NCBI RefSeq assembly: GCF_002934625.1
Contig: NZ_PTJD01000021.1
Coordinates: 1-41,890 of the forward strand
Source: Kineococcus xinjiangensis
Lineage (GTDB): Bacteria > Actinomycetota > Actinomycetes > Actinomycetales > Kineococcaceae
DNA: 41,890 bases
Direction of reading: 5' to 3'
Shown: piece after piece, positions 39,514 to 41,890 of the stretch
How positions within the stretch are numbered: the stretch's first letter is position 1
How the letters are laid out: each line of letters begins with the position of its first letter
The notes under the pieces: model-generated
Told to the model about the DNA's origin: nothing
Databases searched by the model: none
Seen by the model: the letters and a program-made list of their open reading frames with translations, nothing else
Made by a program: the position numbers and the translations under genes

Positions 39514-39609
39514 CCCGCTGCCCGTGTGGAGCTCATCTCGGGTGGCGGGGTCACTCCCTGTGGTGTGACATCAGTTCACACCGTTCGCACGACTCCCGGG
39601 GGAACCCAG

Positions 39610-39825
39610 ATGGTCATCGAGAAGCTGCACGACTCCGGCATCCGGTCCGAGCACGCCTACGCCGCGGCGTTCGCCAGCATCGGCCTGTCCTGGCTGGCGT
39701 ACTACACCTCCAAGCACAAGCAGGGCGAGGGAACCGACCGCGCGGACCGCTGGTCGATCTTCGTGGGTCAGTGGGCCCCGACGTTCTTCGGCCTGGGCAA
39801 CGCCCTGCGCAGCTACGAGAAGTGA
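39610..39825 (+). CDS. Small conserved hypothetical protein, probably membrane-associated
   Basis: A 71-residue protein with a weakly hydrophobic stretch (AYAAAFASIGLSWLAYYTS) and a second aromatic-rich one (WSIFVGQWAPTFFGLGNALR). The ATG has GGGGGAA about 7 nt upstream. The function is unknown; the two segments suggest a small hairpin membrane protein. Confidence 0.75.
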   Translation: MVIEKLHDSGIRSEHAYAAAFASIGLSWLAYYTSKHKQGEGTDRADRWSIFVGQWAPTFFGLGNALRSYEK

Positions 39826-39900: not shown

Positions 39901-40917
39901 TCAGCAGTCGCCGACCTGCCGCAGCACCTCGTAGGACGTGTTTCCCGCCGCGGCGCTGCGCAGTTCCTGCGCCCCGGCGTCGATGTACTTCTGGGACGTG
40001 TTCAGGCTCTGGTGCCCGAGGAGCCGCATCACCTCCACGGCGCTGGCACCGCTGGCCACGACACGGGTGGCGAACGTGTGCCGCAGCGCGTGCACGAGGG
40101 ATCCCCGCAGGACGCGGTCGTGGACGCCGGCCCAGCGGTAGCAGGAACGCACCAGGTACTGCAGCTGGTTGCGGGTCATCGCCCGACCGGAGCCGTCGAC
40201 GAAGAGCCACTGCGACGGCCCGGGGCGGCGCCCGTCGCCGAAACGGGCAGCGCGGGTGTCGAGGTACGAGTCGAGGACTGCGGTGAGGGCCGGCTCGACC
40301 GGCACGCTGCGTTCGGCGTTGCCTTTGCCCAGGACGTGCAGGCGCTGGTCCCCGGGGGCGCCGACGAGGTCGCCGACGCGCAGGGCGAGCAGCTCCGAGG
40401 AGCGGATGCCGCTGACGAGCAGGGTGGCGAGCACCGCGAAGTCCCGCTCGGGCCACGGGTCCCGGGCACGGCGCATGCCGGCCGCGACGGCTCGAAGCAG
40501 CACCTCCGGGGTGTCCTGGCCGCGCAGGGGCTTGGGCTCCTGCCGCTCCGCGCGGGGACGCTCGATCCCGGCCATGGGGTTGCCGGGCAGCACGTCCTCG
40601 CCGACGAGGAAGGTGCAGAAGCCGTTCCAGGTGGACCAGGCCCGGGCGATGGAGCTGCGGGCGTGGTCGACGGAGAACGCGGCGAACGCCGACCGCAGGG
40701 GACGCACGTGCAGGTCGGCGAGGCGCAGATCGCCGGGGCAGCAGCCGAGCTGGGCGGCCAGGTGACGGCTGATGACCGTGAAGTCCCGGCGCTGGGCGGC
40801 GAGGGTGTGGGGGGAGTCCTTGCGGGGCAGGCGCGCTTCGACGTAGGCGGTGAAGCCCGCCGCGAGCTCGGAACCGGGGGAGAGGTACCCGAGGGTGGGA
40901 AGAGCCGGCAGGACCAC
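39901..40917 (-). CDS. Tyrosine site-specific recombinase (integrase)
   Basis: A 338-residue phage-type integrase/XerC-D-like recombinase. The N-terminal SAM-like core-binding domain is about 15-110. The catalytic domain keeps all key residues: R172 (SGIRSSEL), K198 (GKGN), H276 and R279 (HALRHTFATR), H302 (LLGHQS) and nucleophile Y311 (QKYID). It should cut and join DNA at specific sites. The GTG start is 6 nt from a TATCCT box (40924-40929), so the mRNA is probably leaderless. The palindrome-rich DNA just upstream could hold its own site. Confidence 0.93.
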   Translation of the reverse strand: MVLPALPTLGYLSPGSELAAGFTAYVEARLPRKDSPHTLAAQRRDFTVISRHLAAQLGCCPGDLRLADLHVRPLRSAFAAFSVDHARSSIARAWSTWNGFCTFLVGEDVLPGNPMAGIERPRAERQEPKPLRGQDTPEVLLRAVAAGMRRARDPWPERDFAVLATLLVSGIRSSELLALRVGDLVGAPGDQRLHVLGKGNAERSVPVEPALTAVLDSYLDTRAARFGDGRRPGPSQWLFVDGSGRAMTRNQLQYLVRSCYRWAGVHDRVLRGSLVHALRHTFATRVVASGASAVEVMRLLGHQSLNTSQKYIDAGAQELRSAAAGNTSYEVLRQVGDC

Positions 40918-40923
40918 GACGCC

Positions 40924-40929
40924 AGGATA
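40924..40929 (-). promoter_or_regulatory. -10 box TATCCT of the recombinase gene
   Basis: Minus-strand TATCCT followed by 6 nt and the GTG start. It fits the leaderless pattern. Confidence 0.5.
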
Positions 40930-40956
40930 GCAGGCGCGGGGGAGTGGCGTCGAGCA

Positions 40957-40979
40957 AACCCCTTGCGCCGCAACGGGTT
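40957..40979. repeat. Interrupted palindrome upstream of the recombinase
   Basis: AACCC-C-TTGCG and CGCAA-C-GGGTT are complementary except for one C-C mismatch, around a 1-nt centre. Its place just upstream of the promoter suggests an operator or a recombination core site. Confidence 0.5.
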
Positions 40980-41029
40980 CACGGTGGTTCCGTTAGCGCT
41001 AGTTGAGAAGCATATTCACCATTATGCGT

Positions 41030-41041
41030 ACTTCCGGAAGT
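41030..41041. repeat. 12-bp perfect palindrome ACTTCCGGAAGT
   Basis: Lies directly after an AT-rich patch that ends CACCATTATGCGT. Confidence 0.6.
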
Positions 41042-41357
41042 GGCCCCTCGGGCGCCGCGCGGCGTGTCCAGGCGCCGCCGTGGCATCCGCCGACGTCCAC
41101 CGCCGCCGCGGGATCGTCGCCGTCGAGGGTCCGGGCGTCCGCCGTGGCGGCCCGGGCGGGACGTGCCCCGGGTGCTGGACGGTTGCCGGAGGTGGCGGCG
41201 GCCGAGCTGGCCGGGCGGTGACCGTCGGGCCGCCGGCGCCAAGGCCCGTCGATGTCCGGCCCGTCGGCACCTGCGGATCGCGACGCCTGCGGGTCGGCCC
41301 GGCGTCCGTGGGCGCCGCCGCGTCGCGCCGGGCCACTGGTGGCGCGTCGGTCGCCGT

Positions 41358-41423
41358 GTGATCCGCTGTTCGTCGACGGAAACGACAGCTTGGTGCCGCA
41401 TTCGTCGACGAACAGCGGATCAC
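41358..41423. repeat. Perfect 21-bp inverted repeat with 24-nt spacer
   Basis: Arms 41358-41378 and 41403-41423 are exactly complementary (GTGATCCGCTGTTCG... and its complement). Each arm itself contains the palindrome CGTCGACG. No gene ends beside it, so a plain terminator role is not obvious; a recombination or transposon-end role is possible. Confidence 0.85.
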
Positions 41424-41483
41424 GGTCATGGACCGCGATGTGAGCGGCCGGAGGCGTCGAGCGCCCCCTTCTCTGTAACGCCG

Positions 41484-41497
41484 ATAATCGACATTAT
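41484..41497. repeat. ATAAT-CGAC-ATTAT inverted repeat
   Basis: An AT-rich island of the form often seen at tyrosine-recombinase crossover sites. A similar string, ATATTCACCATTATG, lies at 41012-41026 on the other side of the 41-kb palindrome region. Confidence 0.45.
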
Positions 41498-41738
41498 GTC
41501 AGATCATCCTGACGGAAGCCTCCCCCGCCCTGACCCAGCCGACCCGTGCGCCGTCGTTGACGAGTCCGAGCACCCGGACGCCGCCGGTGGTCCCGCGTCA
41601 CCTCTGACGCCTGAGATCGCGTGGATGATCTTCCGCTCATGTCTGCGGGCTCAGGCGGTCATCCGCGCATCGCCGACGAGCGATCACGGCAAACGTGGGC
41701 GAGTGAGCGATGAGTCTCACTCCTTCCACGGGTCTTAG
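41496..41738 (+). CDS. Possible small protein of unknown function
   Basis: An 80-residue open frame starting at the ATG that overlaps the ATTAT repeat. The sequence begins MSDHPDGSLPRPDPADPCAV, is acidic at first and then has a short hydrophobic helix (PEIAWMIFRSCLRAQAVIRA). There is no clear ribosome binding site. It could be a gene remnant or a chance frame. Confidence 0.3.
   Translation: MSDHPDGSLPRPDPADPCAVVDESEHPDAAGGPASPLTPEIAWMIFRSCLRAQAVIRASPTSDHGKRGRVSDESHSFHGS
41648..41700 (+). repeat. Possible diverged GATC-core repeat copy
   Basis: CATCCGCGCATCGCCGACGA followed by GCGATCACGG resembles the ACATCCGCAATCGCCGCCG ... GGTCATGG pattern at 4610-4645. Similarity is weak. Confidence 0.25.
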
Positions 41739-41827
41739 CGTCATGGCTTCTGCGCTGCCGCAGCTCTCCCTTGAGGAGACCACCACCGTCACCGGGGGTC
41801 TGCTGCATGATCCGGTGTCAGATCAGG

Positions 41828-41890
41828 TCACGCGGCCTGATTGGCCGGTGCGGTCATGATGGTCTCGTACTCGATAGGGGTCAATCGGCC
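41828..41890 (-). CDS. IS3-family transposase (OrfB), C-terminal end only
   Basis: The minus strand enters the window in frame and reads GRLTPIEYETIMTAPANQAA followed by a stop. The TPIEYE block is the characteristic C-terminus of IS3-family OrfB transposases (rve integrase core). Only 20 residues are visible, so the rest lies beyond the window. The terminal inverted repeat should lie between about 41740 and 41827 but could not be fixed. Confidence 0.75.
   Translation of the reverse strand, partial: GRLTPIEYETIMTAPANQAA

Follow-up and report, generated by a model that had tools for sequence, protein, structure and literature searches.

The right-hand end of the window, by which the whole stretch of 41,890 nucleotides analysed here is meant (contig C21 of a 4.6-Mb draft genome), raises the question of why two similar AT-rich strings lie beside the gene of a tyrosine recombinase. 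The left string, ATATTCACCATTATG (41012-41026), and the right string, ATAATCGACATTATG (41484-41498), are in direct orientation, 472 bp apart from start to start, and have 12 of 15 bases in common. In the initial annotation they were regarded as crossover sites at the ends of a small excisable cassette, and an interrupted palindrome and a 21-bp inverted repeat nearby were regarded as further parts of an attachment or excision locus. Both strings, the palindrome and the repeat were confirmed in the sequence at the positions given here and in Table 1, and the recombinase is intact, as had been claimed. The right string is part of the chromosomal dif site and the left one part of a separate symmetric site (site A), and site A and the recombinase probably constitute a second, single-recombinase system for the resolution of chromosome dimers at dif.

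The recombinase and the two neighbouring sites

The pair of strings is real and above chance. A pattern built on the right string matched itself and the left string (with three mismatches) in the 41.9 kb scanned, and in 100 dinucleotide shuffles it gave a mean of 0.05 matches, with two matches in 0/100. Stronger evidence than this test is that the pair recurs upstream of orthologous recombinases. The view of the strings as crossover-type sites in the initial annotation was borne out: both are of the Xer family type and adjoin an intact tyrosine recombinase.

On sequence grounds, the right-hand string is the chromosomal dif, a site that in general is used by XerC and XerD, and the window dif would presumably be used by these two enzymes as well. 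The window dif, AACGCCGATAATCGACATTATGTCAGAT, is 23/28 identical to the Frankia alni dif, CACGCCGATAATGCACATTATGTCAAGT (as quoted in an excerpt of PMC3025954). The pattern CATAAYGNNNAWTATSG has one match each in 8/12 genomes of the host family and none in the other four (G002 to G005), and its reversed control has no match in the 12. A longer dif pattern (at most 3 mismatches) matches the same eight genomes, two of which have one further weak match. The weaker second dif-like strings, GATAATNNTTCTTAYGNCA, are found at G006 C6:67056-67076 and G009 C84:8877-8897, on contigs other than that of the terminus module. In G002, only 113 bp of the contig remain upstream of the recombinase match; G003, G004, and G005 are without dif and without a recombinase orthologue, G003 and G004 having one Xer-like match each. 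The chromosome of Kineococcus radiotolerans is described as linear (excerpt of PMC2587704), and by analogy linear chromosomes could explain the losses in these three genomes.

The recombinase is best described as a third Xer beside XerC and XerD, with a clade of its own. Residues R-K-H-R-H-Y, which we take to fill the catalytic roles (R171, K197, H275, R278, H301, and Y310 in the numbering of alignment A1), do not vary among the 18 proteins aligned, as expected of an active tyrosine recombinase. With 158.1 bits in the XerC model (cut-off 335.15) and 134.2 bits in the XerD model (cut-off 329.6; both NCBIfam), it passes neither; nor does it pass the XerS model NF003462 (74.2 vs. 267) or the integron integrase model (41.7 vs. 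265). The genome's own XerD-like gene on contig C22 (score 315) and XerC-like gene on contig C1 (289) are below the NCBIfam cut-offs too, though far nearer to them than the third recombinase. A tree of 107 proteins separates the 88 rows of the subfamily from 19 XerC/XerD-like rows (17 of 21 relatives and 2 from the same genome as the window) with a split support of 100/100; the plasmid, Acidimicrobiia, and Kineococcus groups each form one side of a branch, and three subfamily rows with long branches are of unsure placement. Among solved structures, the recombinase comes closest by profile to XerD (1a0p, E 1.7e-36), and orthologues with 62-71% identity occur in 8 of the 11 other genomes of the family.

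Two other identities were rejected. A phage integrase was discarded for want of a close viral relative, the best being at most 36% identical among the 80 of 260 viral loci that were kept and a strict scan finding none, and an integron-like array was discarded because the protein falls well short of the integron cut-off and the dif-type pattern is single-copy. Between the recombinase gene and a gene for a GCS2-like ligase lies a 99-aa reading frame (39526-39825) with no match in Pfam or NCBIfam.

The left-hand string appears from its arms to be a separate symmetric Xer-type site, tied to the third recombinase. In the host family, site A takes the form GCATAA-N6-ATATGC in 8/8 loci that also hold dif, where it lies upstream of the recombinase orthologue, 105-158 bp before the start of the protein match, with one arm departing from symmetry at the inner base; in G002, a diverged site A was seen by eye. 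In other families, its consensus is TCATGCATAA-N6-TTATGCATGA or variants, with the core form TGCATAA-N6-TTATGCA. The arms are symmetric and the six spacer bases free. Outside the host family, the symmetry of the arms continues beyond the imposed pattern, up to TCATGCATAA...TTATGCATGA (80 loci); because the pattern imposes the inner arms there, only the outer TCA/TGA bases are independent evidence of symmetry.

The interrupted palindrome, AACCCCTTGCGCCGCAACGGGTT, which was proposed as part of an attachment or excision locus, is conserved next to the recombinase promoter. CGTTGC-nnn-GCAACG is found in the window and in 7/8 family loci (not in G002), each time just before a TTGACA-like box and, as counted by eye, 18 to 44 bases from site A, and it looks like an operator. 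The 21-bp inverted repeat forms a genuine hairpin (DNA fold z -6.05), but it was dropped as a recombination site, since it is a dispersed repeat outside the conserved module. Similar hairpins are present at G000 C10:167777-167847, C10:32063-32110, and C9:199784-199839, the last being a weak match, and their common pattern is GTGATC...CGTCGACGGATGCG.

The nine family loci have no gene in common between site A and dif, as judged by gene calls and clustering. A conserved gene order around the module was also considered and rejected, the widest shared neighbour being one downstream gene in four genomes; a few other neighbouring genes are common to two genomes. At 41795-41890, the window ends in the end of an insertion sequence, the frame end of which presumably resembles an IS3-type transposase. 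The same 95-96 bases end contigs C20, C5, C26, and C10, and this is probably the reason why the contig stops.

Table 1. Positions of the features discussed (window coordinates unless a locus is named)
Feature	Position	Strand	Remarks
Third Xer-like tyrosine recombinase	39901..40917	-	338 aa; PF00589, E 3.6e-21
KOPS-like CGGGGGAG	40937..40944	+	points to dif from the site A side
Operator-like palindrome CGTTGC-nnn-GCAACG	40957..40979	-	upstream of the recombinase promoter
Site A, putative symmetric Xer-type site	41005..41032	+	core GCATAT-TCACCA-TTATGC at 41010-41027
Interval between site A and dif	41033..41476	.	no common gene, no GGGGGAG motif
Hairpin repeat	41358..41423	.	perfect 21-bp arms 41358-41378 and 41403-41423
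Chromosomal dif, as judged from its sequence	41477..41504	+	XerC arm 41477-41487, spacer TCGACA 41488-41493, XerD arm 41494-41504
KOPS-like CGGGGGAG	41520..41527	-	points to dif from the far side
Tn7-like genes	L111:15802-18573; L112:3548-4441 (G001 and G008)		both with a TnsA-like gene (PF08722); G001 also TnsB-like, with rve and Mu C-terminal domains

Co-occurrence and pairing across actinobacteria

The link between site A and the recombinase was surveyed in 298 genomes of one order, in which the recombinase was called at E <=1e-40 and the 7 best first-look candidates were scored per genome. The recombinase was found in 83 of them and the pattern TGSATAA-N6-TTATSCA in 87, mostly in one copy each, with 0/298 genomes matching the reversed pattern. 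Site A was present in 82/83 genomes with the recombinase vs. 5/215 without it (Fisher p 4e-66, with the genomes treated as unrelated and kinship ignored), and the only recombinase genome without it, G502, has the weakest recombinase match. Two to four copies are carried by G600, G618, and five genomes of family f22. Site-A-like palindromes (at least 6/7 arm bases) were absent from 80,002 bp around 21 XerC/XerD-like loci and from 400,000 bp of G007.

Of 62 loci with 1.5 kb of upstream flank, 36 have a symmetric site no more than 350 bp from the gene, its distance upstream of the protein match being 9-316 bp; dif (at most 3 mismatches) was found in 33 of the flanks and both sites in 28. When 20 loci were widened, dif and a perfect site A were found 299-952 bp apart in 15, with the recombinase gene up to 7.6 kb off or on the other side. 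The other five comprise a weaker pair 286 bp apart in G601, two loci with none nearby (G669 and G689), and two with site A and without dif (G1009 and G866). The wider stretches account for many, though not all, of the loci that lacked dif or site A in the 1.5-kb flank.

The two-site layout of A and dif recurs in dozens of actinobacteria. When each distinct site context is counted once and the two sites are no more than 3 kb apart, there are 88 distinct pairs, 276-1406 bp apart (median 490), in which site A is on the XerC side of dif in 51 and on the XerD side in 37. In searches with site A in one order, 30/30 loci among the matches listed have dif (at most 3 mismatches) at 331-1406 bp. A further 20 stretches were picked because the gene was distant, the family different, or the genome without the gene, and dif was near site A in 12. 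In G556, G646, G658, G630, G650, and G669, dif is by site A and the recombinase gene is 0.5-1.1 Mb off or on another contig. The eight stretches without dif include three on contigs of 191-216 kb (one being the G115 plasmid, and the 216-kb one having the length of a named plasmid), one in G601, where this site A is distant from the weaker pair of that genome, and four unexplained.

Two loci deserve mention on their own. In G580 (C2, locus L367, and C1:26846-27817), a contig of chromosome size has site A 935 bp from dif and the recombinase is encoded on a 191-kb contig, so that a plasmid-encoded service for the chromosome is possible. In G657, a 216-kb contig (C2, locus L372) has two A-type sites about 10 kb apart, one of them beside the recombinase.

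Relatives of the recombinase are found on 61 plasmid records, with at most 44% identity among the 40 matches listed. A neighbouring clade on circular plasmids of Mycolicibacterium and Rhodococcus shares this type of site: in 6/8 plasmid loci, one with perfect arms lies 44-1317 bp upstream of the recombinase, and the arms change in a linked manner (TGGATAA/TTATCCA, TAGATAA/TTATCTA, and TACATAA/TTATGTA). Of the remaining two loci, one has an imperfect site only and one has no site. No dif (at most 3 mismatches) was found in 7-kb stretches of the eight plasmids. In Acidimicrobiia, nine loci of the same recombinase subfamily (3.5-10.9 kb each) contain no site A and no convincing dif, and the dif-like strings in them have 4 mismatches and are chance-like.

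Motif polarity at the replication terminus

The replication terminus lies at the right-hand end of the window. Motif polarity was used for this placement because GC skew in the closed relative G007 is too noisy. In 20 stretches of 20 kb from G007, octamers with at least 60 copies were ranked without prior choice, and the one most biased relative to dif is CGGGGGAG, with 64 copies pointing toward dif and 6 away. In the window, 11/12 copies to the left of dif are on the + strand, and the single copy to the right is on the - strand. The polarity switch thus places both dif and site A at the terminus. From its likeness to KOPS, CGGGGGAG would be expected to guide FtsK.

Polarity converges on the pair in other genomes as well. 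The motif GGGGGAG, counted in 23 of 29 loci given, points toward the A-dif pair 316 times and away from it 13 times. Its density is 0.74 per kb outside the pair and 1.51 within 2 kb, and only 2 copies occur inside the A-dif intervals (12.0 kb) vs. 8.9 to 18.1 expected.

In seven related genomes of one lineage, no dif (at most 4 mismatches) was found in 22-40 kb. In five of these, the polarity switches at site A (toward:away 21:0, 18:1, 26:1, 10:1, and 15:1), and in the sixth, the best switch range (15/17) contains an imperfect site; in the seventh, G995, the contig ends before the switch. This lineage may have a diverged or more distant dif. In G1046, the perfect site that coincides with the switch is 7.5 kb away from the gene, and a poorer copy beside the gene is off the switch.

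Tn7-like transposon genes start close to dif in G001 and G008, on the side opposite site A, and insertion directed to the terminus or to dif is possible. GGGACA-type repeats adjoin dif in several relatives, as seen by eye.

Interpretation and comparison with known systems

In the preferred reading, which we consider probable, site A would serve as the cognate site for a third, dedicated Xer recombinase whose gene is adjacent. Briefly, a chromosome dimer has two A sites, to which two dimers of this one recombinase would bind; cleavage would take place across the 6-bp spacer, and one crossover at A, presumably under the control of FtsK, would separate the sisters, as with XerS/difSL and XerH/difH. 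Site A would have to sit in the FtsK convergence zone, and it would therefore stay about 0.3-1.4 kb from dif even after the recombinase gene has moved away; in one lineage, site A may serve alone at the terminus. By analogy, site A looks as a single-recombinase Xer site would be expected to look: its arms are strict and symmetric, its spacer is free, it is linked to one recombinase, and it lies at the terminus. Several points weigh against dimer resolution at A. Two adjacent resolution sites could reverse each other's effect if both fired, and XerC and XerD are present in the genome, which leaves a third system without an obvious need. The Acidimicrobiia loci without site A, the genomes with two to four copies, the eight stretches around A sites without dif, the flanks lacking dif or site A, and the departing inner arm base in the host family count against it as well. 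Since two sites firing together would cancel out, conditional or alternative use of A and dif is likely.

It is unlikely that the recombinase binds site A and makes no crossover there, helping or blocking FtsK or XerCD at dif as an accessory or roadblock factor, or regulating its own gene. Site A does lie just upstream of the protein match in 36/62 loci (9-316 bp), and the A-dif pair brackets a motif-poor zone, both of which would suit such a role, but the distance (276-1406 bp) and the side (51 XerC, 37 XerD) are too variable for a fixed geometry, and site A remains where the gene is elsewhere. The invariant catalytic residues also speak for catalysis rather than mere binding, as do strict arms with a free 6-bp spacer, which are typical of crossover sites.

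Site A might instead be an attachment site, with the recombinase being an integrase, domesticated or resident, by which plasmids or integrative elements enter the chromosome beside dif. This is rather improbable, considering that the distance to dif is at most 1406 bp in the 88 pairs (pairs over 3 kb being left out), that most site-bearing genomes have one copy, that there is no close viral relative, and that proximity to dif is kept in six genomes with no gene nearby. What recommends it is the same kind of site in the plasmid clade of Mycolicibacterium and Rhodococcus, together with G580, where the chromosome has site A 935 bp from dif and the recombinase is on the 191-kb contig.

Recombination of A and dif with each other, excising or inverting the 472-bp interval, is very improbable. 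The two strings are direct repeats with 12/15 bases equal, but the arms are of different type and the 6-bp spacers differ in 88/88 distinct loci, with at most 4/6 bases in common in either orientation. The excisable cassette of the initial annotation is disfavoured, because the spacers of A and dif never match and the interval has no conserved gene; the interval also varies from 276 to 1406 bp and lies on either side of dif. For the same reasons, differing spacers and no shared interval gene, the locus was rejected as an IMEX, in which cargo lies between two compatible dif sites. A decayed, functionless second copy of dif is scarcely credible, since the likeness of A to dif and the asymmetric inner arm position in the host family are outweighed by perfect or nearly perfect arms in several families, linked changes on plasmids, and co-occurrence with one recombinase.

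There is roughly an even chance that many actinobacteria have a two-site terminus, in which dif (with XerC/XerD) would mark one end of the motif-poor zone and the third-Xer site the other, so that translocation along each arm would meet a different system, and that in at least one lineage dif has given way to the second system. As a simple sequence rule, TGSATAA-N6-TTATSCA would help to locate the terminus in draft genomes of these families.

Among known systems, XerC/XerD-dif is represented in the locus by the right-hand string itself, and the 6-bp spacer layout, the terminus position, and the KOPS-like convergence are common to both sites; it differs in that site A is symmetric and that the third recombinase, with scores well under the XerC and XerD cut-offs, stands in a clade of its own. 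Plasmid multimers are resolved by tyrosine recombinases such as Cre/loxP, ResD, and TnpI, and the plasmid relatives of the A recombinase, with a symmetric site nearby in 6/8 loci, resemble these systems, whereas on chromosomes the system keeps to dif and the terminus.

The nearest known systems, as far as excerpts of PMC2731167 and PMC5357621 describe them, are XerS/difSL of streptococci and lactococci and XerH/difH of Helicobacter and Campylobacter, in each of which one recombinase gene is linked to its own dif-like site at the terminus. Site A is likewise linked to a single recombinase gene, though the gene has moved away in some lineages. These systems are described there as single-recombinase systems, whereas site A coexists with XerC, XerD, and dif about 0.5 kb off, and the genome of the window, with its XerC-like and XerD-like genes, is not free of another Xer pair. 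In addition, the A recombinase is below the XerS cut-off, and site A is different from difSL and symmetric. XerL/dif of Legionellales, according to an excerpt of PMC9765430, is also a single-recombinase dif system linked to plasmids, as the A system is, but it is reported from other bacteria, in which no other dif/Xer is known. The excerpts of the open-access literature that were searched do not describe a third Xer system linked to dif in Actinomycetota.

Chromosome dimer resolution is usually described with one dif per chromosome and one recombinase pair or a single recombinase. A second dedicated site and enzyme about 0.3-1.4 kb from dif, across several actinobacterial families, would show Xer systems duplicating and replacing each other.
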